DNA from: Petrosia ficiformis
Taxonomy: Eukaryota; Porifera; Demospongiae; Haplosclerida; Petrosiidae
Length of the DNA stretch: 64,000 nucleotides
Reading direction: 5' to 3'
Assembly: GCA_947044365.1 (NCBI GenBank)
Contig: OX345636.1
Location: forward strand, 23,903,466 to 23,967,465
Shown here in pieces: positions 24,691-57,716 of this stretch; position 1 is the first letter of the stretch; every line of letters begins with the position of its first letter. Both the position numbers and the translations under genes were made by a program. The notes beneath the pieces are model-generated. The model ran no database searches, had not been told where the DNA came from, and was given only the letters and a program-made list of their open reading frames with translations.

Positions 24691-25393
24691 TATTGCCTTA
24701 ATTTTTTACATTTATTGGAAATTGATACTAAACAAGTGTTTTTCCACATATCTTCAAACATCTGGTCAGAAACTTTATTTTTTGATTGAACAATATTCTT
24801 CACTGCACTTCTTAACTGCGACAACTTTTCTGGATTAAATTGGTGATATCCTTTCAGTCGACCAGAAATGGTAGAAGATTTCAATACCCCTTCTCCAAAG
24901 TATGTATGTACTGCTAACTGAATTGCCAATCGACCAATATTAAATTTGGTTTTTGTAGTATGACTTCATGAACACTTTTGAACTTAGATGGTGAGATGGC
25001 TTGGATTGGTAATTGTGTTGTCATAGAGACATCAGGTGAGTTAAAGTCTTGTTGGTAATTAGATGGGGTCTGTAGACAGCTAGGCCCTGCCTCAATTTGT
25101 GCTGTGAGATTTTCTGAAGGGAAGAAAAGGGGTTGGCAACCACTATCCCTTCTCTCCTGTGTAAATAGAGCCACCGGTTTTTCTGATGGATGGGATGGGC
25201 AACCACTATCCCTTTTGTTATCATGAATAGAGAGAAATGATTCGTCTGTTAAATCGGAGATTATTACTGGCAATCTCATTATCAATGGGAAAATGGCTGT
25301 GAACTGGTAGTGGTGGTGATACAAAAGTGTCAGCAGAAACCTGAAGACTTGAAGGAGGTGATTTGAAGGGTATAGATGGTGTAGATACTTCTG
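24690..25393 (-). pseudogene. BEN-domain gene, 3' part, interrupted by the viral insertion
   Basis: BEN domains bind DNA and recruit chromatin factors. The domain is the last exon (about 24929-24690): 'VHTYFGEGVLKSSTISGR', then 'QLRSAVKNIVQSK' and 'MWKNTCLVSISNKCKKLRQ'. Upstream is a low-complexity, Ser/Pro-rich region with an internal repeat (RDSGCPSHPSEKP / RDSGCQPLFFPSEN, about 25120-25230). The frame changes near 25240-25260. Coding similarity continues on the far side of the insertion: the frame at 33770-33880 (minus) runs into the frame at 25363 and below if the viral element and one copy of the 31-bp repeat are ignored. So this exon was split by the insertion. Confidence 0.7.
25363..25393. 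repeat. 31-bp target-site duplication, left copy
   Basis: Begins ttgaagggtatagatgg and ends gatacttctg. It is identical to 33770-33800 and flanks the element. On the minus strand it is coding sequence of the BEN gene (reads STPSIPF). Confidence 0.93.
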
Positions 25394-25486
25394 GACCTTA
25401 ATCACTCTATTAGCACTCCTTTAATCAGGTATGACCTCCGGAGGTCATACCTGATTAAAGGAGTGCTAATAGAGTGATTAAGGTCC
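25393..25486. repeat. Left terminal palindrome (94 bp)
   Basis: Perfect 47-bp arms centred on GACCTCC/GGAGGTC at 25439/25440, with no loop. The outermost G is shared with the host. As single-stranded DNA this folds into a complete hairpin like parvoviral telomeres, which prime replication by strand folding. Its outer sequence GGACCTTAATCACTC also appears at the right end. Confidence 0.95.
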
Positions 25487-25539
25487 TGTGTTTATACAAG
25501 TTATTAGCACATATGTACATATTTACCTATAAAATAATA

Positions 25540-25960
25540 AATATTATTATATAATAAATAATAATAATTGTGATTAAGAATAGTGATTAACTTTTTTTTT
25601 TTTTGGTGATTAAGAATGTGATTAATAATAGTGATTAATGAAATATTTATTATGTGATTAAGTACCTTAATCACTCTATTAGCACTCCTTTAATCAGGTA
25701 TGACCTCGAGGTCATACCTGATTAAAGGAGTGCTAATAGAGTGATTAAGGTACTGTGTTTATACAAGTTATTAGTACATATGTACATATTATAATAGTAA
25801 TAATTGTGATTAAGAATAGTGATTAACATTTATTTTTTTTAATAGTGATTAAAGAAATATTTATTATGTGATTAAGAATGTGATTAAGAATAGTGATTAA
25901 GCATATTTATTGTGATTAAGAATGTGATTAAGAATAGTGATTAAGCATTTTAAAGTATTC
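25540..25960. repeat. Iterated GTGATTAAG words, candidate Rep-binding repeats
   Basis: The 9-mer GTGATTAAG and close variants (gtgattaagaatagtgatta) recur more than ten times at spacings of about 11-16 bp. The complement cluster is at 33420-33610 at the other end. Such iterons next to a hairpin are what parvoviral replication proteins bind (GACC or ACCA repeats in known viruses); that role here is inference. Confidence 0.6.
25661..25754. repeat. Second, internal copy of the terminal palindrome
   Basis: Perfect 47-bp arms (AGTACCTTAATC... outward, centre GACCTC/GAGGTC at 25707/25708). Same body as the terminal palindrome but with a different centre and different outermost bases. The sequence after it (to about 25955) repeats the subterminal region of the first unit with drift. 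So the left end carries two terminal units in tandem. Confidence 0.93.
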
Positions 25961-26015
25961 TTAGTATATTTCAGTATATTTCAGTATATTTCATTAGCTT
26001 AATAGCTTTAGAAAG

Positions 26016-26819
26016 ATGAGCAAGCAAGAAGAAATGGAAGTAACTAAATCACTTCCAGCAGCTAGTTTAGCTAGAAGTTATTCGAAACAATCATCTACTG
26101 ATGAAGAACCTATACCTATCGAACCTTTACCAGGAATAAATACATCTCTTCAAGTGTTGTTCGATTACTTAGGATCATTCGTTGAAATCATGAGTAATTT
26201 TACTTCTACCTTTACTCCAGTTATTCATATTGCTGTTTTCATTGCATATTTGCAAGCATATGGCATTTCTTTTGTGCCTGAGTTTGTGATGTGTTTGTTT
26301 GACAAAGCTGTACGTGATATAAGTGGTGATCCTTTAGAAAAACAACTTGGAGATAAACGTACTAGCACTCTAATGAAACTATCATATATGGCTATACCTA
26401 GACGACTTAGAGAGATGGCCATACAAGGTGGATGTAAACATATACAAAGTGTAGTGTACGAGCTTTATTTCAATAATAGAAACCTCTACCATAATACTTG
26501 GTTCGAATCTTTCTCTTACACTTATAATGCTGAATTCTCTAACTTGATTTTCGGTTTGCAAGATAAACTATGGCCAAACTATGCAAAACAAACTTTTGGG
26601 TCAGAAGTTGAAGGTACAGATGGAGCTCCTATAGACTTAGATTCTGAGACAACAATCAAAGCTGGAGTTGAGTATTATAGGTCAAAAACAGATAGAGATG
26701 GGAAACAATCACAATGTGAGGTTCTTAGGATTAAGGGTAGCATTAAAGAATTTCTTGATTTTCAATTACACAAAAATGATGATAGTGGTGGTGTTGAGGG
26801 TGATTTTATCTTAGTATAG
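26016..26819 (+). CDS. Viral ORF A (267 aa), unknown function
   Basis: Intact. Polar N terminus ('MSKQEEMEVTKSLPAASLARSYSKQ', of which the first ~40 residues look disordered), a hydrophobic helical stretch at about residues 65-90 ('VIHIAVFIAYLQAYGISFVP'), then a mixed alpha/beta body and an acidic tail. No known motif recognised. Upstream is a threefold 'ttcagtatat' repeat (about 25968-25993) that may form the core promoter. Its stop lies 58 bp inside the opposite-strand Rep frame, so the two are tail-to-tail and overlap. Candidates include a structural or accessory protein; I cannot choose. Confidence 0.7.
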   Translation: MSKQEEMEVTKSLPAASLARSYSKQSSTDEEPIPIEPLPGINTSLQVLFDYLGSFVEIMSNFTSTFTPVIHIAVFIAYLQAYGISFVPEFVMCLFDKAVRDISGDPLEKQLGDKRTSTLMKLSYMAIPRRLREMAIQGGCKHIQSVVYELYFNNRNLYHNTWFESFSYTYNAEFSNLIFGLQDKLWPNYAKQTFGSEVEGTDGAPIDLDSETTIKAGVEYYRSKTDRDGKQSQCEVLRIKGSIKEFLDFQLHKNDDSGGVEGDFILV

Positions 26820-28580
26820 ATACTCCAATTGGTAACTACAGGTATGTAGTTTGTGTTCAAAGAGGTGTTACTGATGAATATGCAATGAATGTAATTCTTT
26901 TCCCTATTATCATCAATAAACCTTATAAAATTAATAGGTGAAATAACAATAGGTTTTTTAACAAATTGAAATGAATTAGGAAAATGGAATATGAATACAC
27001 GATTATTTAAAGTAGTCATCTCACTATGAGATTGTTCTCTACTAAATACTTGATCAAGAGGGTAATTAGAAGTAACGAAACAAGGTGTTCTTTTAACTTC
27101 AATTGGAGCTTTATATTTGATATTTATACTTGTAGTTTCACCTTCCCATAATTTTTTAATTGTAGACAAAGAATGGACTGGTATTGTTGAAACATCTTCA
27201 AACAGAAAGCAAGTACGATATGAAGCTTCACTAAAAGCAAACTGCCCTCCTTGTTCAGTGTACGAACCGAAACGAACAAGTAGCCTTTTAATGATATTTA
27301 TTATGAGAGTTTTACCACTAGAACTTGCACCATATATGTAAATGCAATTTCTTTTCCCTGATGTTTTATTTACTACTTCATAAATTGCTCAACAAAAGTA
27401 TCTAATATCATCTTCAGAAAATTGCTGGAACCTAAGTAAACCAAAGAGAAATTTAATTGAATCTTCACTTGATGCATAATCTGTATTTGATTTAGGAGCT
27501 AAAGTGTTATGGAAATTCCTCCAATCCCATTGAGTTATTTTGTCATGAACCCATCTCTCCAAAGCCCTATTCCACTGTTTAGCCATACCTCCTGCACTAA
27601 ACTGTTCATAGTCTTTCTTACTCAATTTTATATGAACACTACTAGCATCTATACAGCCATATTTTTGGAAGAATGAATATATCTTCATAAAAGGAGATGT
27701 AGAATGTGATGTTATAACTGTTCTTTGTTGAAAGCAATTTATATGGTTTTTTGTAAGCCTATGCTTAAAAGCAATATACCATTCAGGATGTTCGTAAAAT
27801 ATGCAACTATATAAAGAATCGTTACCTTTCTTGTAGCACATAATATCTTTTTTGCACAAAGGGTTGAGTTTGTTATTATAGCCTGAAGCATAATCAGGTC
27901 TAGCTAATGCCCCAACAGCAATGTAATTAGTCATTCCACACCACGGTGACATATTCCCAGAGATACTTGCAAATGCCATTTTACGAAAAAAAAATTTCCT
28001 AACATTTTTTTTTATAAACTCATCTTCACAGCCAAAATATTTGTTAAAAGCACCCCTAAACCTTTGAGGTTGCCATTCTTTAGAAGAAATAAGAATACAG
28101 TGATAATGTTGATATTATTGTATGCTCTCCATAAACTATTTCTAAAATTTCTTGTGTACTTTGTGAAAGCTCACCATCACTATTAGCCCTCTCTTCTGTT
28201 TGTTCTCCTTCTTCTTCTTCTTCTTCTTCTTCTTCTTGTTCTTCTTCCTCTTCTTCTTCTTGCTCTTCTTCGATTTCTTCTACTATTTCATGTTCTTCTC
28301 TTTCTTCATCTTCTTGGTCTTTTTCTGCTTGAATTGATTCTTCTATTTCTTCTTCATGAATTCTTTCTAAACCCCAATTCAACATTATGTGAGGTTCTAC
28401 ATAATCTTCTGGTAGGGTTTGTTCAACATCTTTATTCAAGAACTGATCAGCAAACTCTCTCTGCCTGATAGACAACGTTTTAATATGGTCGAACTCAACA
28501 TCGTAATCAGACAGATCATCATCTTCTTCAACCCTTGGGTATTTACTTGAAGAAGGTTGTTCGCTCTGTCTTTTACTCAT
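26762..28580 (-). pseudogene. Viral Rep (NS1-like: HUH nuclease and SF3 helicase), broken
   Basis: Rolling-hairpin replication initiator: nicks one strand, stays covalently attached through Tyr, and unwinds. N-terminal part (28580-28120): nuclear-type basic residues, then a long Glu run encoded by a TTC-type repeat on the plus strand. In the next frame HYH (codons 28108-28100) is the HUH metal site. Some 76 codons on, 'GYNNK' (Tyr at 27880) fits the YxxK motif. Walker A 'GASSSGKT' is at 27331-27308, Walker B-like 'LFEDV' at about 27210, a K..W-G..-K stretch ('KLWEGETTSINIKYK') at about 27145-27105, and sensor-1 Asn in 'FVTSNYPL' at about 27075. Breaks: a frameshift between about 28135 and 28110 (just before HYH) and an in-frame TGA at 27391-27389 (before Walker A). 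The family call rests on motif order and spacing; the nuclease part before HYH is not clearly visible. Confidence 0.85.
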
Positions 28581-28688
28581 TTTGAAATAAACAAATTAAA
28601 TAAAGGTCATCATTTTATAATAAATTAAAACCACAAGACACGCCTATCTATGACTATATAAGAAGAATTTATTTCATTTATTTTAATA
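28581..28688. promoter_or_regulatory. Divergent promoter between Rep and B1
   Basis: 108 bp between two head-to-head start codons. On the plus strand 'gactatataagaag' (about 28648-28661) is a good TATA box about 30 bp before B1. On the minus strand 'ttataaaatga' (complement of about 28606-28616) can serve Rep. A compact bidirectional promoter fits a small viral genome. Confidence 0.6.
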
Positions 28689-29141
28689 ATGCAAAATTAT
28701 TTCAACTGTGAAATTAACGGCAAAGATTTAGAACTCAAAGTTATAAGTCAGTTCGCTTTTAGTCAATACAAAATATTTGACATTGACTTTTGTACACCGA
28801 ACAATTTGAAAGTTAGATTTTGGAGAGGAAAAGACGCTTTAACTATATATCTATACTCAAGTATAATAATTGGAGTGAACGATGTCTTACAAATCAAATA
28901 TGAAGACTTCATTGCTCAAAGGGAAGGCAAAATCAATGGTGAAATTCACAAATGCTTCCCAACATCAAGAATCAAATCCTGTACAGCATGTCACAAAAGA
29001 CATTGGGGAGGACACCAGCCAAATTGCAAGTGGGGAGAAACATGCGAAAGAGTTGTCATCGAATTCGCAAACCATTTCGAAATCCCAGAAGGAGCATGCC
29101 CCTATCCAGACAGATTGCCAGACATCAACTACAAACCTTGA
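28689..29141 (+). CDS. Viral ORF B1 (150 aa), Cys/His-rich
   Basis: Intact. Begins 'MQNYFNCEINGKDLELK'. The C-terminal third has 'CTACHKRHWGGHQPNCKWGETC' and then 'EGACPYPDRLPD'. The C-x2-C-x2-H..H-x3-C-x5-C spacing suggests zinc binding. The last 260 bases overlap B2 in another frame. In densoviruses two NS proteins overlap in this way, but I see no sequence relation. Function unknown. Confidence 0.65.
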   Translation: MQNYFNCEINGKDLELKVISQFAFSQYKIFDIDFCTPNNLKVRFWRGKDALTIYLYSSIIIGVNDVLQIKYEDFIAQREGKINGEIHKCFPTSRIKSCTACHKRHWGGHQPNCKWGETCERVVIEFANHFEIPEGACPYPDRLPDINYKP

Positions 29142-29892
29142 AACACCGAAACAAGTCTTAACTCCAGAGACTGGAATGAAGAGGAAATTAGAAGAACAAC
29201 AACAAGAACAACCAGCTAAAAAAAGTAAGGAAGATGAGGAAGAAGAGCCTAATTATCTTTATGAATTTAAAGATAAAATAGTTGCAATTGATCCTAAACA
29301 ATATATGAATGAATATGTCAAGAAAAATGGAAGCAAATATATGAAAATATTGTCTATTGATTATTCATGCTGGGATAATATCCCTTTAAATTTACAATTA
29401 GGTCATGATGTGTTCAAACAATCATCATATGCATTAGCTTTAGTTCCTTCTCCTAGAAATTTTGAAGAATATAATGAAATGCGTTATCCTTTGGCTTTCT
29501 TTATTGAAAAATTTGTAGCATGTGTTCCAAATCAATATGCAATCAAAGGAATTAACTTTGTTAATGGAGTTGAGATTATAGATTGCTTTAAATGGTTACA
29601 TACTATTGCTAATTCAACAGACTTTGAAGATTTTGTTAAAATCATCATAGGATCTAGTTGTTTAGCTGATAGGCATAGAGCTAAAAGATATAATGCACTG
29701 ATATTTAATGATTTTGTTTTGAGAAGGCTAGGAGTAGCATTCCTAGGCTATTTCTGTAATAAATGTGAAGTAGCAAGAGGAATTCTACAAGCTAAAGATG
29801 ATGATATTGATTTCAATTCTATAAGTGAGCACATAATGAATGAAGTCATTAGTGATGATGATGATGATAAATTTGATATATGGGATTTCTAA
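28882..29892 (+). CDS. Viral ORF B2 (336 aa), overlaps B1
   Basis: Intact. First ~110 residues are polar, Lys/Gln/Ser-rich, ending in a bipartite-like nuclear signal ('KRKLEEQQQEQPAKKSK', about residues 99-115). The folded part (about 120-330) is rich in aromatics ('PKQYMNEYVKKNGSKYMK', 'SSYALALVPSPRNFEEYN'), with an Asp-rich tail. The true start could be spliced from B1, since the overlap region reads open in both frames. No known family recognised. A poly-T run and ATTAAA follow at about 29893-29935. Confidence 0.7.
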   Translation: MSYKSNMKTSLLKGKAKSMVKFTNASQHQESNPVQHVTKDIGEDTSQIASGEKHAKELSSNSQTISKSQKEHAPIQTDCQTSTTNLETPKQVLTPETGMKRKLEEQQQEQPAKKSKEDEEEEPNYLYEFKDKIVAIDPKQYMNEYVKKNGSKYMKILSIDYSCWDNIPLNLQLGHDVFKQSSYALALVPSPRNFEEYNEMRYPLAFFIEKFVACVPNQYAIKGINFVNGVEIIDCFKWLHTIANSTDFEDFVKIIIGSSCLADRHRAKRYNALIFNDFVLRRLGVAFLGYFCNKCEVARGILQAKDDDIDFNSISEHIMNEVISDDDDDKFDIWDF

Positions 29893-30046
29893 TTTTTTTT
29901 TTTTTTTAGGATTTGCTCATTTAACACTTAAAATTAAACCTGTTAGACTATTTTGATTATTTTGATGTATTTTGATTGATTTATAATTTGATTTATGTAA
30001 TCTTTATTTAAAAAAAAAATTAAACACAAGTCATGAAAATACACAG

Positions 30047-31173
30047 TCATTCATGATGCTTTCTTTCACTATCTTCAAAAAATCTTTTGCCTAATCTATC
30101 ATAATCAGTTATCATTGTACTTTCTATTTTCAATTCTCTTGATTTGGCTATATCAATTAAATGAATATAACAGACATCTAGTTGTTCATTACAAGCTTCA
30201 GGAGACATAGAATTACTCCTAACACTATGCAATAAAGTAGCTAAAGTAATTGGCACATCAGTTACATAGTTCATATCTTGATCTTCAATTCCTTTTTTGG
30301 TTAATTGATCGAAAACCTCAGCCCTAATCAACCCTAAAACTCTATTTTTATCTTCTAAATCTTTGTAAAGATTATTACTATCTTCCATCTCTGATTGGGA
30401 AGAATAATCACCACTATCACCTTCACCACCTACATTTGGACTAGCTGGAGGAGTAGACTCTGTTTCATTTGAAGGTAAAGTACCTAAAGTTTGGCTTTTA
30501 GTATCACCTTTTTCTTTCATAATTTTACGAAATTGTGTTAGTTCATACTTATAGTCTAAGTATTGTTTGTAGCTTCTTTCTAATAACCTCAAATCTATAG
30601 TAGGTTTTTCATTAAATGAAGCTTTCCATACTTCTTCTACTATATCTAAGAAATATCTTGAAATAACCTCTTGATCTGATTCTTCTGTATATTCATCTTC
30701 TTCAGCTATTTTCTCAATATCTACATTACCCATTATAGTTTTCCTATTGCCTTTTCCACCTGACATTGGCATAACTATAACCCTTCCTTTTCTGCCATTT
30801 TTAGGTTTAGACAAAATGAATTGTGGCTTTTGGAAATGCTGTACTTTCATATAGTACAATTCACACGATACAAACATAAAATAAACCTTCCATCTACCCT
30901 CTTCTTATTAGACCACACCTGAGTTCTCTTCATATTCGTCTTCTTCCATCCAACAGTAAATGTGATTTTTAAATATTGGGGATGACTAGACATAAATTGA
31001 ACTATCATTGGTTTAGTCAATTCTTTGTAGTCTAAACCCATTGAAGGCTTTTCGACCAAATGAATTTCTTTGTTATATAACCAATCATCATAAGCTTCTT
31101 CAATTCTGCTCTCATATCTTTTCTGTGCTTCACGATCATCAGGGCCAGCTGAGTAAACTGATGTGAACGACAT
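30047..31173 (-). pseudogene. Viral ORF C, split by a frameshift
   Basis: Two frames overlap at 30847-30877: an N-terminal 108 codons from 31173 and a C-terminal 276 codons. The reading fits better as one protein of about 370 residues with a -1 shift near 30893, because the sequence in the second frame stays protein-like upstream of its first Met. The first part is charged; the second has a Gly/Lys-rich basic patch ('KPKNGRKGRVIVMPMSGGKG'), then helical acidic segments and a Ser/Pro linker. An AATAAA for this strand lies at about 30003-30008. Function unknown. If the short overlap is real instead, these are two genes. Confidence 0.6.
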
Positions 31174-31212
31174 TTTTAAGTTAAACCTCTTATTAAAATT
31201 AAATTATTAAAA

Positions 31213-33230
31213 TTATAAATTGAAATGTACTTGTTGTTCATTGTCATGATGATGTTCATCATCATGATGTTCTTCATCATGATGATGTTCATCTTCATCT
31301 TCATCTTCTTCTTTTTTTTCTTCTTTTGTAGGTAAACTACTTTCATCTTCTTTAACGAAAGTTACTTTATCATCTTTATTAAGAAAGCTGATTATAGAAG
31401 GTAAAGGATTTTTTGTTCCCACAGCAACACAACTATTAACTTTAGAATTTTCATCTGTTAGACATACTGTAGGTATATTTGGTAATATAATAGCTTCACC
31501 ATCATCAGTTGAAACTACTCTATGATGTAGACCATTAGATTCAGCCAAGACAAAAGGTAAAAACATACTAGCAGCTCCAGCAATATCTTTGCCAAAGCTT
31601 AATATATCATTAATATTAATTTTAATCTTGTGGAGATGTAATTCGAAATATCTATCAAGAAAGTATTTTTCCTTTTCTTAACTCCTCTGATTTCTCTTCC
31701 AATAAAACAACATACACCTCTTTTTTTAACAGCACCATTAATCAGCAAATTGACCCTATCTCTATCAGTAGCAATATTATCATTATTTTTGTGTTGTTTA
31801 TTAGAAACAATTCCACTATCATGATCTTTATCAAACCCCATTCCTGATATAGTTAGCACACCTGTTCTACCTCTTTCAGCTATTATTTCTGAATCCCAAA
31901 GCTCGTTGTTATAATATTTATCAATAGGCATTAAACTCTCATGATATATCATTTCAACTTCTATTTTAGGCATGTCTACATCATACCACAAAGCAACCAA
32001 AGCACTAGCATCTTTAACATCTTTGATATCAAGCATAGATGATTTTTGATATGAAAGCCTAACCAAACCATGTATATTTTCGCCTGGAATGAAAGATTGC
32101 ATAGCCATATGCTCGAAACCAGTTTGGAAATGTTGTACTATTTCGTATTAAGGATAGTACCTAAGTGTAAAAGTTTGAATTTTATTCACATCTACTTTCC
32201 TGTCATATATATTACTAACTCTAGTAAGAGTTTGGGAATAATAAATAAAAGAATCTTTCCTTTGAGGAATCAAAGAGCATCTTTCTTCGAATTCAAATGA
32301 GGATGTAGGCTTCTCTCTATTAATTATTTCATCACCCCTTTCGTCTTCGAAAATTGCTAAATCACCTAATTCAATAGGCTGTGTAGAAAAAACTATTTGT
32401 GTTGAATAACATATACTAAGACTTGATAAAGTTTCATGGAAACCATAATTAACCAAGCTATCTATATTATGCATTTGAAAGTTAGCTTTGTGAACAACTG
32501 AATTTGTAACTTTGAAATGAGTGAGCATTGGAACTGTTAAAACAGTTTTGCCATTTAAAACTTTACTTGAAGCAGGTAAATCAGGTATTTGGTAATCTAT
32601 AACTTCAAACTTCTCCATATAATTTCTAAACTTCTGCTTATTTAAAGGCTGAGGTTTGTCACCAAAGAAAGACAAATCTACTGTAAAATTAGATTCCATT
32701 GCATCTTGTTGTATTGTGATATTGTTTTTACCTATAAATTCGTCAACTGACTCTAATACACCATCATCTTCTTCAATTTCCATCATTTCAGGTCTATAAT
32801 CTATAATCCCATCACCACTCATTCCACTAAACAAGGCATAGGACTTAGGAATATTAACTGGAGTATCTTCTACTTCTTCTTCTTCAGGAACTGTTCTTTT
32901 AGTTATTACTTTATCTTCAACACTCCTATCAAACCCACTAGTTGTAATCTTTATCTTTTGTTCATCAACAACTTTCTGTAGATTAGCAACTTTCTTTGAT
33001 AAAGATTTATTATCCTTCATAGCTTGTTCGTGGAGGACAATAAGTTTATTAGCAGCACTCTTAGACAAAACACTATCATCTTTAGGTTTTTTCTTTGGAA
33101 TACCACTAGGAATATCTTCTAAAAGACGTTTAGTAGCTTTAGCTAAAGCTTTAGTAGTCAACCCTTTTTTAGTAGCCATTTTCTTTAAGGATAAAAAAAA
33201 ATAAAATATGTTAATCACTTTCTTAATCAC
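31213..33230 (-). pseudogene. Viral ORF D, largest gene; candidate structural protein, broken
   Basis: The frame from 33230 runs 360 codons to a TAA at 32150-32148, continues in the same frame to 31599, then continues in the -1 frame (shift near 31665-31680 in an A-rich tract) to 31213: about 670 residues in all. N terminus very basic ('KKGLTTKALAKATKRLL', 'PKKKPKDD'), then a coiled-coil-like stretch, an acidic linker, a beta-rich body (about 32700-31700) and a His/Asp/Glu-rich tail ('HHHDEEHHDDEHHHDNE'). It is the last long gene next to a hairpin, where parvoviruses keep VP. I see no phospholipase A2 motif, and the capsid role is inference from position, size and basic N terminus. Confidence 0.65.
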
Positions 33231-33239
33231 ATTTATTAC

Positions 33240-33420
33240 TCATTATTATTATTATATTACATACATATATATATATATTACATTATATATATATATTACA
33301 TTATATATATATTACTTTTTATATATATATTACTTTATACATATATAATAATAATATATATATATATAATAATAATAATAATAATATATATATATATAAA
33401 TATATATATATAACAATGTA
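33240..33420. repeat. (TA)n/(TAATA)n tract upstream of viral ORF D
   Basis: About 180 bp of almost pure A and T with repeated 'atatatatata' and 'ataataataata', between ORF D and the right terminal repeat. It probably contains the ORF D promoter; expansion after integration is also possible. Confidence 0.8.
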
Positions 33421-33489
33421 GTGATTAAGAATATGATTAAAGTTTTTTTGTTTTTTAAAAATATATATAATACATTACAATACTTTAAA

Positions 33490-33769
33490 ATGCTTAATCA
33501 CTATTCTTAATCACATTCTTAATCACATAATAAATATTTCATTAATCACTATTATTAATCACATTCTTAATCACCCAAAAAAAAAAAGTTAATCACTATT
33601 CTTAATCACAATTATTATTATTTATTATATAATAATATTTATTATTTTATAGGTAAATATGTACATATGTGCTAATAACTTGTATAAACACAGGACCTTA
33701 ATCACTCTATTAGCACTCCTTTAATCAGGTATGACCTCCGGAGGTCATACCTGATTAAAGGAGTGCTAA
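33490..33769. repeat. Right inverted terminal repeat and truncated palindrome
   Basis: Near-identical complement of 25394-25670, including the palindrome with the CCTCCGGAGG centre (33693-33739 complete arm, 33740-33769 incomplete arm). The outer 17 bp of the palindrome are missing at the junction with host DNA. The inner GTGATTAAG words extend further inward than in the left outer unit and match the left inner unit there. Confidence 0.92.
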
Positions 33770-33890
33770 TTGAAGGGTATAGATGGTGTAGATACTTCTG
33801 TACTGTTCTTAAGGGAAATTAGCTGGTCAGTTTTCACTTCAATACTTCGGATATGATTTACTATTCAAATGCTTCATGATCAGAGTACAA
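33770..33890 (-). pseudogene. BEN gene exon part beyond the insertion, with right 31-bp duplication
   Basis: 33770-33800 is the right copy of the target duplication. The minus-strand frame from about 33880 ('IRSIEVKTDQLISLKNSTEV') leads into the duplicated segment and then matches the frame left of the element. It is thus the upstream half of the split exon. Confidence 0.65.
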
Positions 33891-55837: not shown

Positions 55838-57716
55838 TGAATAATGACCCAACAGATGCCAAAACCCCAGAAGTATGTGTCAAAGTCAATGGTGTTTCTA
55901 TTAAGATGATTGTTGACACAGGTGCCTCCACAGATATATTGGACATTCACCAAAATAAAACATCTAAAGAATATCAAGCTACAAACTCCTACTAAATGTA
56001 TTTTTGCTTATGGTTCTAAGTCACAGCTCCATGTACTTGGAAAGTTTGACACCGAGATAGAATTCAAGAACAATTGTCATACCTCTACTGTTCATGTGTT
56101 ACAAGGAAACCATGGATCACTACTAAGTTACAAAACAGCTTCTAACCTTGGTATCATTGATGTAAATCTTCATTGAATTGACGAGCAGTCACTCACCTCT
56201 GAAAGGTTGGTGCAGCAATATCCAAATGTGTTCAAAGGGATTGGAAAGTTAAAGAATGTTGACATCAAGCTACACATTGATGAGACTGTTCCTCCGGTAG
56301 CCCAGTCAGCTCGCTGCATTCCGTTCCACATGAGAAAGAAAGTTTCTAAAGAATTAGAGAAAGTGGAAGGACCAACTCCCTGGGTTTCTCCATTAGTCGT
56401 CATCCCTAAGAAAAATGGTGATGTTCGACTCTGTGTCGATATGCGAATGGCTAATAAAGCAATAAAGCGTGAAAGACATCCAAGTCCGACTGTTGATGAT
56501 TTGATCCACATCCTGAATGGAGCCACAGTATTTTCGAAACTGGATTTACGTGCTGGTTACCATCAACTAACGTTAGCAGAAGAGAGCCGATATATCACGA
56601 CATTTACCACTCACAAAGGTCTACGACGATATGCCAGATTGAATTTTGGTACAAACTCAGCAAGTGAAACATTTCAGAAAGTCATCAACGAACAGACTCA
56701 AGATATTCCTGGTTCGTTGAATATCAGTGATGATGTCATTGTATTTGGCACAACTCAAGCTAATCATGATAAAGCCCTTCAAGCAGTTTTACAGAAATTC
56801 TCTAAGGTTGGTCTGACTCTGAATAAACAGAAGTGTGAGTTCAACAAAAGCTCATTGACATTTTTTGGTTTTGTGTTCTCAGCTAACGGAATTTCTCCTG
56901 ACCCAAAGAAAGTTCAAGCAATTCATGAGGCTAGTCCACCAGATTCGATCAGCAGTGTCAGAAGTTTCTCAGGAATGGCCACATACTGTGCAAAGTTCAT
57001 CCCAAACTTCAGCGAGATTTCACAGCCACTTCGAAAACTAACGAAGAAAGATACTCAGTTCAAATGGACGCAGGACGCAAGAGCATGATCATTCATTCAA
57101 AATGATCAAAGAACAGTTAACTGGTGATAAAGTCATAGCTTACTTTGATCAAAGCAAAGAATCCGAGCTAATCACAGATGCCTCACCATTTGGTCTATCT
57201 GCTATTCTGATACAGAAAACTCCGGGACGAGAGGACAGGAAAGTTGTTGCATATGCAAGCCGATCGTTATCTGATGTAGAAAGCCGTTACTCACAAACTG
57301 AGAAAGAAGCATTGGCTATAGTTTGGGCAATTGAAAGGCTTCATCTCTACTTATTTGGTAATCATTTTACTTTATACACAGACGGTAAACCAGTCCAACT
57401 GATTGTTGACAATCCAAAATCGAAACCACCTGCCAGAATTGAGCGATGGAATTTACATCTGCAAGGATATAATTTCACTGTCGTACATACGAAAGGAAGT
57501 CAGAATCCATCTGATTTTTTATCGAGACATCCAAACCCAAAGGAAAATGAAAAGCTGGATTTACTAGCAGAGGACTATGTCAACTTCCTCATCATTCATG
57601 CTTTACCGAAAGCTATGTCTTTAGAGGAGATTCAACTAGCAACTAAAGCTGATAACACCTTACAAAGGCTCACAGATCTATTAAATCTGTTTCATCCTAA
57701 TGGCGAGAAGAAGTGA
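55838..57716 (+). pseudogene. Ty3/gypsy pol: protease, reverse transcriptase, RNase H (broken)
   Basis: Protease: 'IKMIVDTGASTDIL' with the D-T-G-A active site (about 55895-55935). Reverse transcriptase 56207-57085: 'FSKLDLRAGYHQL' (catalytic Asp), 'NISDDVIVFG' (the xxDD box, here S-D-D) and 'GLTLNKQKCEF'. RNase H 57102-57716: 'LITDASPFGLSAIL', 'SQTEKEALAIVWAIERLHLYLFG' and 'FTLYTDGKPV'. Breaks: a frameshift after the protease (about 55935), a stop at about 56175, and a one-base shift at about 57075-57085 between RT and RNase H. The element is cut off near 57716, where minus-strand SAP/SWIM sequence begins. Integrase is absent here, whereas the window start has an integrase of similar type. 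Confidence 0.92.

Follow-up and report, generated by a model that had tools for sequence, protein, structure and literature searches.

What kind of genetic element occupies positions 25394-33769 of this stretch of sponge DNA, and what did it descend from? The window that we analyzed is the whole stretch of 64,000 nt from Petrosia ficiformis (GCA_947044365.1, contig OX345636.1, 23,903,466-23,967,465, forward strand). The original prediction for this locus was an endogenous virus of an early animal, with hairpin ends, a parvovirus-like Rep and an 8.4-kb genome. Our analysis favors a related reading, that the element is an endogenized copy, with parts deleted, of a linear DNA virus that had hairpin ends and a Rep related to that of parvoviruses. 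We hold this to be reasonably probable, and membership in Parvoviridae is not assignable on present evidence. The insertion comprises 8376 nt, the 31-bp host duplication predicted at its two ends is perfect, and the early-animal host is confirmed insofar as the insertion sits in a sponge genome, the host being identified as a sponge from mitochondrial genes. The features are collected in Table 1.

Table 1. Features of the insertion and its flanks (window coordinates; L019 to L022 are other loci carrying the element)
Position	Strand	Feature	Remark
25363-25393		Host target duplication, left	31 bp (TTGAAGGGTATAGATGGTGTAGATACTTCTG), same as right copy
25393-25486		Left terminal palindrome, perfect, 2 x 47 nt	Element boundary ~25394
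25394-25950		Left terminal repeats; TGATTAA at 23 sites in an array on both strands	Candidate Rep-binding iterons
25661-25754		Second, internal palindrome (perfect, 2 x 47 nt) of the duplicated left terminal-repeat unit	
25998-26819	+	ORF A (ATG 26016), truncated here	No recognized family
26893-26894		Deletion site, 0.74 kb vs L020 or 0.89 kb vs L019	Rep end and ORF A end lost
26900-27388	-	SF3 helicase portion of Rep, with Walker A, Walker B and sensor 1	Parvo_NS1 and Rep40 matches; dN/dS 0.03-0.04
27389-28114	-	Rep HYH endonuclease-like motif and linker	Stop before helicase part
28115-28116		Deletion site, ~341 nt (~114 Rep codons) vs L019, L021, L022	
28117-28580	-	Rep acidic N-terminal part, ATG at 28580	Joined frame in relatives
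28689-29141	+	ORF B, 150 aa, Cys/His-containing	Overlaps ORF C
28882-29892	+	ORF C, 336 aa	No recognized family
30047-30904	-	ORF D, no recognized family	Sole match in genome
30847-31173	-	ORF E, 108 aa	Overlaps D in different frame
31213-33179	-	Gene of ~650 codons	Now three ORFs (32148-33239, 31599-32147, 31213-31677)
33191-33769		Right terminal repeat, TGATTAA array (15 sites)	Truncated palindrome 33693-33769
33770-33800		Host target duplication, right	Identical to left copy

The inverted terminal repeats are present as proposed; over the compared stretch 219 of 220 aligned positions are identical and 2 columns are gapped. The predicted perfect 94-bp palindromes are present at the left end, where two terminal-repeat units lie in succession, whereas the right palindrome was shortened by the junction to a 34-nt arm with one mismatch. 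Folding of positions 25393-25490 gave -52.4 kcal/mol (z -20.7), and because none of 200 shuffles was as good, the terminal palindrome is not there by chance; the palindromes and the folding together bear out the hairpin-forming ends. The motif TGATTAA occurs at 41 sites/kb in the left terminal repeats, compared with 0.1-0.3/kb in the interior of the element and elsewhere in the window, and these arrays, found again in other copies, are on their sequence candidate Rep-binding iterons.

This genome has pieces of the element at no fewer than seven loci. Five of the seven have a palindrome whose arm is at least 32 nt long (up to one mismatch), and L021 showed none in the 9.9 kb examined. The palindromes of L022 and L024 have 72-88% identity to those of the window, and palindrome sequence thus varies between copies, yet the arms within each copy's palindrome differ by at most one mismatch, a figure that is low partly by construction since the scan tolerated no more than one. 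Among the ends inspected, those of L019 and L024 and the left end of L022 are perfect palindromes, and the right end of L022 and the end of L023 have one mismatch. This combination of divergence between copies and equality within them fits hairpin replication that keeps the arms equal.

The helicase region (26762-27388) matched Parvo_NS1 (PF01057) at 2e-15 in the Pfam search, above the curated cut-off, with PPV_E1_C second at 4.9e-13, so that papillomavirus E1 scores nearly as high as the parvovirus family. The best PDB matches were Rep40/Rep68 (Rep40 structures at 2.5e-8), and these checks support a helicase of parvovirus type in the predicted Rep. The helicase piece also had a weak primase match in PHROG (6.6e-4). 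On the minus strand an HYH lies upstream and is followed in order by GASSSGKT, FLFEDV and VTSNY, which we take to be Walker A, a Walker B-like and a sensor-1-like motif. That order had been predicted correctly. The YxxK placed among these motifs, by which YNNK of GYNNKLNP was probably meant, is not conserved, because YNNE, YNDQ, YKDE or SNNE stands at that position in relatives and in the other copies. The invariant tyrosines among four relatives (alignment A8) are those of YRKM and NYIAVG, which in P0004 follow the HYH by 38 and 59 residues, and the YRKM tyrosine is F in the window Rep. The HYH part has no match to a Pfam endonuclease domain; HYH or HFH with downstream tyrosines recurs in relatives, and the HYH part lies in the same frame in L022 and P0004. 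The acidic N-terminal part shares one frame with it in L022, P0004, P0006 and P0007, and the HYH part and SF3 helicase form one protein in relatives. The window Rep is broken by a stop between 28114-27389 and 27388-26900.

Since the window copy is without ~341 nt and another 0.74-0.89 kb around Rep, arithmetic across the copies indicates that the full element probably measured ~9.2-9.3 kb. The predicted 8.4-kb genome rightly exceeded the Parvoviridae range, but a deleted copy had been mistaken for the full genome. A spliced intron at the 28115 gap was also considered and ruled out by the open coding frame there in L021, L022 and, apart from one early stop, L019.

ORFs lie on both strands, as predicted, but three of those on the minus strand are pieces of one gene of ~650 codons, P0014 and P0023 each matching all three. 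Its protein has an acidic, His-rich C-terminus and, going by size and place, is a candidate structural protein. ORF A runs stop-to-stop for 423 codons in L019 and 428 in L022, and the overlap of ORFs B and C is open in L019 also.

Selection on Rep was examined in 13 pairs (10 HYH/linker and 3 helicase); dN/dS was 0.03-0.05 in the six with finite dS, and pN was 0.06-0.11 in the seven with dS beyond correction. The helicase part gave 0.03-0.04 in all three of its pairs, ORF A 0.12-0.35 (6/6 pairs) and the 650-codon gene 0.17-0.52 in the eight of ten pairs that had at least 40 codons. Four of the six non-Rep frames (A, B, C and the 650-codon gene) have fewer amino-acid than synonymous changes, and purifying selection on ORFs A, B and C supports the plus-strand genes that had been proposed. 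For ORFs D and E the genome holds no second copy for comparison. With synonymous sites near saturation and the Rep protein little changed, the copies diverged as working genes. Segmental duplication as the source of the copies is ruled out by the same divergence with conserved protein. In L022, Rep, ORFs A and B and a portion of the 650-codon gene are linked in the window order between two palindromic ends. Outside this assembly, relatives include P0004 (at most 69% match here) and P0020 (at most 58% here).

A virion protein was not recognized by sequence in the Pfam and PDB searches of the element ORFs. No non-Rep ORF had a Pfam match above cut-off, including any VP or PLA2 family, and the PDB comparison, which covered the 650-codon protein and ORFs A, C and D, returned nothing below E 0.3. 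PHROG gave nothing of note for the eight pieces other than the helicase, among them A, B, C, D, E and the first two 650-codon pieces. Predicted structures of ORF A (P0009 first, 6 sequences; mean pLDDT 38) and the 650-codon protein (P0014 first, 7 sequences; mean pLDDT 31) were uninformative. Scans of viral contigs for Rep, ORF A and the 650-codon protein, by a method that needs short conserved peptides, yielded no relative, nor did prokaryote genomes and phage records.

The silence of the viral contigs and the missing virion protein match would suit a parvovirus-derived mobile element that kept Rep and hairpins and moves within sponge genomes with no virion, as would the number of loci, all seven of which are on one contig, C1 (post hoc chance 4e-4 for 7/7, or 1.3e-3 if the window is taken as given and only the other six are counted). 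We consider this reading unlikely, because the few copies with near-saturated synonymous divergence are unlike a burst and the A, B, C and 650-codon frames also have fewer amino-acid than synonymous changes. The original prediction had named as contrary evidence many loci together with a transposase-encoding relative and short fixed duplications. At least seven loci were found, but no transposase family matched the element ORFs (Pfam), and the two copies with both ends observed have a 31-bp duplication in the window and no exact one of at least 8 bp in L022 (110 bases searched each side), which also separates the element from DNA transposons with short fixed duplications. The same pattern would be expected from an element that moves slowly and is under selection.

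Papillomaviruses, adomaviruses and polyomaviruses have circular double-stranded DNA genomes without terminal hairpins, unlike the sponge element. Their SF3 helicases are homologous according to the excerpt of PMC10433990, and E1 ranks second among the Pfam matches of the element. Parvoviridae (Densovirinae, Parvovirinae, Hamaparvovirinae) share with the element a Parvo_NS1-family SF3 helicase joined to an HYH-containing part in one protein and palindromic hairpin-forming ends on one linear unit; ambisense coding is also known in Densovirinae (excerpt of PMC11357303). Parvo_NS1 is the top family, with E1 close behind. A very divergent true member of that family, with an enlarged genome and an unrecognized jelly-roll VP, is nevertheless distinctly improbable: 8376 nt with deletions, or ~9.2-9.3 kb by arithmetic, stands against the 3.9-6.3 kb given for the family in that excerpt and against near-complete starfish parvo-like genomes of 6.5 and 5.8 kb (excerpt of PMC6085071). 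The sponge element also differs in having ~seven frames that use both strands and form several blocks, in its simple perfect palindromes and in its host, and its six non-Rep frames have no recognized counterpart, VP and PLA2 families included. NS1-like genes in endogenous or transcribed parvovirus-like sequences of invertebrates, some of them integrated, offer a further likeness (PMC5013282 and PMC6085071, in part), although the hosts listed in the excerpt of the former include no sponge. A bidnavirus relative, a parvovirus-derived replicon with swapped parts, would account for the parvovirus-type SF3 helicase, the linear DNA with inverted terminal repeats and more genes than a parvovirus (compare Bombyx mori bidensovirus), and sponge viromes contain sequences assigned to Bidnaviridae and Parvoviridae (excerpt of PMC6195793, citing earlier work). 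We regard it as very improbable, since bidnaviruses as outlined in part of PMC4061559 encode PolB, have no N-terminal endonuclease domain and have repeats without hairpins, while the sponge element has an HYH part and hairpin-forming ends and its ORFs match no polymerase family, PolB included (Pfam). Tentatively, and at somewhat less than even chance, the element may belong to a virus family of its own in non-bilaterian animals, with a genome of ~9 kb, hairpin ends, a parvovirus-type Rep, ~six more genes distributed over both strands and a virion protein that has no relation to parvovirus VP. In that case replication in the parvovirus manner would not depend on the small parvovirus particle and might predate it. 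The open-access literature searched, with most subscription papers outside its scope, yielded no description of such an element.

For the hairpin-ended virus that we favor, we propose that Rep would bind the TGATTAA arrays and nick at the palindrome base near GGTCCTGTG, that its helicase would drive rolling-hairpin replication, and that a virion protein may come from the 650-codon gene or else from ORF A, C or D/E. A ~9-kb sponge replicon whose hairpin ends are kept in divergent copies would split the replication machinery from the 6.3-kb limit (excerpt of PMC11357303) and from the known capsid, and would serve as an outgroup for the origins of parvoviruses, bidnaviruses and papillomavirus-type helicases. 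Replicating ends may occasionally be joined to host breaks, leaving complete, truncated or missing palindromes, and the copies are a natural set of junctions between a hairpin-ended replicon and host DNA. Among eight ends with host junctions in six loci, five junctions are at the outer edge of the palindrome, two are inside it and one, that of L020, is at its base.

On balance, the element in the window appears to be parvovirus-like in its replication and to be the endogenised remains of a parvovirus-related hairpin-ended virus, which is assigned here to no family; the original prediction is upheld in so far as the element is real and interesting. The profile search proposed there scored the helicase piece of the minus-strand Rep at 2e-15 for Parvo_NS1, followed by PPV_E1_C at 4.9e-13. 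Among solved structures, the best matches of the same piece were Rep40 and Rep68 of adeno-associated virus (AAV), at 2.5e-8 to 1.1e-7. Next came an NS1 of parvovirus type (5.1e-6), and then papillomavirus E1, whose matches began at 1.6e-5. An HYH/HFH motif lies upstream of the helicase within one protein in L022, a further copy in the same genome, and in the database proteins P0004, P0006 and P0007. P0004 has tyrosines 38 and 59 residues past this motif, and the spacing of 59 presumably resembles the distance in AAV Rep from the HUH motif to the nicking tyrosine. The helicase by itself is insufficient to decide family membership, because papillomavirus E1 scores almost as high as Parvo_NS1 and the SF3 domain is, according to PMC10433990, common to papillomaviruses, adomaviruses and polyomaviruses.

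The genome contains at least seven loci of the element (the window copy and L019 to L024), as found by searches that scored a limited set of candidates. All seven found are on contig C1 (63 Mb, 33% of the genome), five of them within 5.5 Mb at 18.8-24.3 Mb; the chance of such clustering on C1, calculated post hoc, is 4e-4 for the seven and 1.3e-3 for the six outside the window. Within the stretches examined, Rep pieces were found at five of the seven loci, which also account for all five matches of a PF01057 search of the genome. The terminal repeat was found at six (both ends at two) and the minus-strand 650-codon gene at four, three of these partial. L022, which measures 5.6 kb end to end, keeps the gene order of the window, with part of the 650-codon gene followed by ORF B, Rep and ORF A.

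The window copy had been taken for a full genome, but it is a deleted fossil. The stretches it lacks encode Rep and the end of ORF A in other copies, its Rep is in two pieces with a stop between them, and its 650-codon gene is broken into three frames. With the missing stretches added and 268 nt subtracted for the duplicated left unit, the full element is estimated at 9.19-9.34 kb, a length obtained by arithmetic over several copies and not seen in any single sequence. The database protein P0002 matches the Rep region of the window without the interruption, with 98% identity over 196 residues and 100% over 96, so there are close relatives that lack the interruption.

Positions of features in the window and in other copies of the element
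Feature	Sequence	Position	Remark
Element	window	25394-33769	8376 nt
Palindrome of second left unit	window	25661-25754	perfect
Missing stretch	window	26893	0.89 kb (relative to L019) or 0.74 kb (relative to L020)
Missing stretch	window	28115	about 341 nt, relative to L019, L021 and L022
ORF B/C overlap	window	28882-29141	about 260 nt; each of the two frames is open in the window and in L019
Tc1-like transposase frame (by eye)	L019	2048-2701	adjoins and apparently interrupts the copy
Other DNA	L021	5880-6885	about 1 kb, inside the Rep gene
Host junction at outer edge of palindrome	window (left), L019, L022 (both ends), L024		
Host junction inside palindrome	window (right), L023		
Host junction at base of palindrome	L020		

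The host duplication and inverted terminal repeats described originally were both recovered: identical 31-bp host sequences flank the element, and its ends are mutually inverted with 219 of 220 aligned positions identical and two gapped columns. The 94-bp palindromes stand at the left end: a perfect one (2 x 47 nt) is outermost, and the other belongs to a second terminal-repeat unit behind it. The single right palindrome is shortened by the host junction. When folded computationally, the terminal strand forms a single long hairpin of -52.4 kcal/mol (mean of 200 shuffles -7.75, none as good). With both strands summed, TGATTAA has 23 sites in the left 557 nt and 15 in the right 579 nt, whereas the 7.2-kb interior contains a single site and the remaining 55.6 kb of the window 11; among the positions listed for other copies, many sites are 12-13 bp apart, in runs. 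The palindromes of L022 and L024 are 72-88% identical to those of the window, yet in each palindrome the two arms are complementary apart from one mismatch at most, a result partly built in by a scan that admitted no more than one. Judged from sequence, the ends seem to behave like hairpins copied out before or during insertion. The variety of junctions would follow if hairpin ends were joined to host DNA in a complete, partly lost or resolved state, and the simplest agent would be a parvovirus-like Rep acting on the TGATTAA repeats beside the conserved GGTCCTGTGTTTATAC.

Simple Nei-Gojobori counts between copies suggest that the element sequences diversified largely as functional genes. Synonymous sites of Rep are near saturation and amino-acid sites are not: dN/dS is 0.03-0.04 in all three helicase pairs and 0.03-0.05 in three of ten pairs for the HYH/linker part (in the other seven dS is beyond correction, with pN 0.06-0.11), and the Rep stretch absent from the window has pN 0.10-0.13 and pS of at least 0.76 in all three pairs. 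Values are 0.12-0.35 for ORF A (six of six pairs; 0.21 for its C-terminal part, one pair) and 0.17-0.52 for the 650-codon gene (eight of ten pairs, two under 40 codons being left out); the higher ones may include decay after insertion. Inside the B/C overlap pS falls to 0.21 (pN 0.18) in the ORF C frame, against 0.60 beyond it, and to 0.38 (pN 0.15) in the ORF B frame, against 0.57 before it, as would be expected, in this one copy pair, of two frames read simultaneously.

On its size and its place by the right end, the 650-codon protein is the best candidate structural protein; neither this protein nor ORF A gave a structure model good enough for use. A mobile element derived from a parvovirus, which kept Rep and hairpins and forms no virion, would be an unlikely but serious alternative. 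It gains weight, and descent from an endogenised virus loses some, because selection could be tested in four of the six non-Rep frames and because the perfection of the palindromes is partly of the scan's own making.

Protein-database searches gave 8, 5 and 10 matches per query, and six scans of viral contigs with Rep, ORF A and 650-codon queries, which depend on short conserved peptides, found no relatives. Of the matched proteins 22 of 23 are from ENA sources, the other (P0012) being the window's own. Some are copies from the same genome (P0005 and P0009 read like L019); the best identity in the genome is at most 69% for P0004 and 58% for P0020, which places both in other assemblies. Contig C29, which we assume to be host mitochondrial DNA, encodes a COX1 that requires TGA to be read as tryptophan at 10 positions, and also an ATP synthase subunit c gene; the host is thus most likely a sponge and probably a demosponge. 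To our knowledge, atp9 is usually absent from the mitochondria of other animals. It belongs to the standard set of 14 mitochondrial protein genes of demosponges, as given in PMC2800124. Elsewhere in the window, at 56177-57716 and 499-1209, frames resemble, by eye, the reverse transcriptase/RNase H and integrase of Ty3/gypsy-like retrotransposons.
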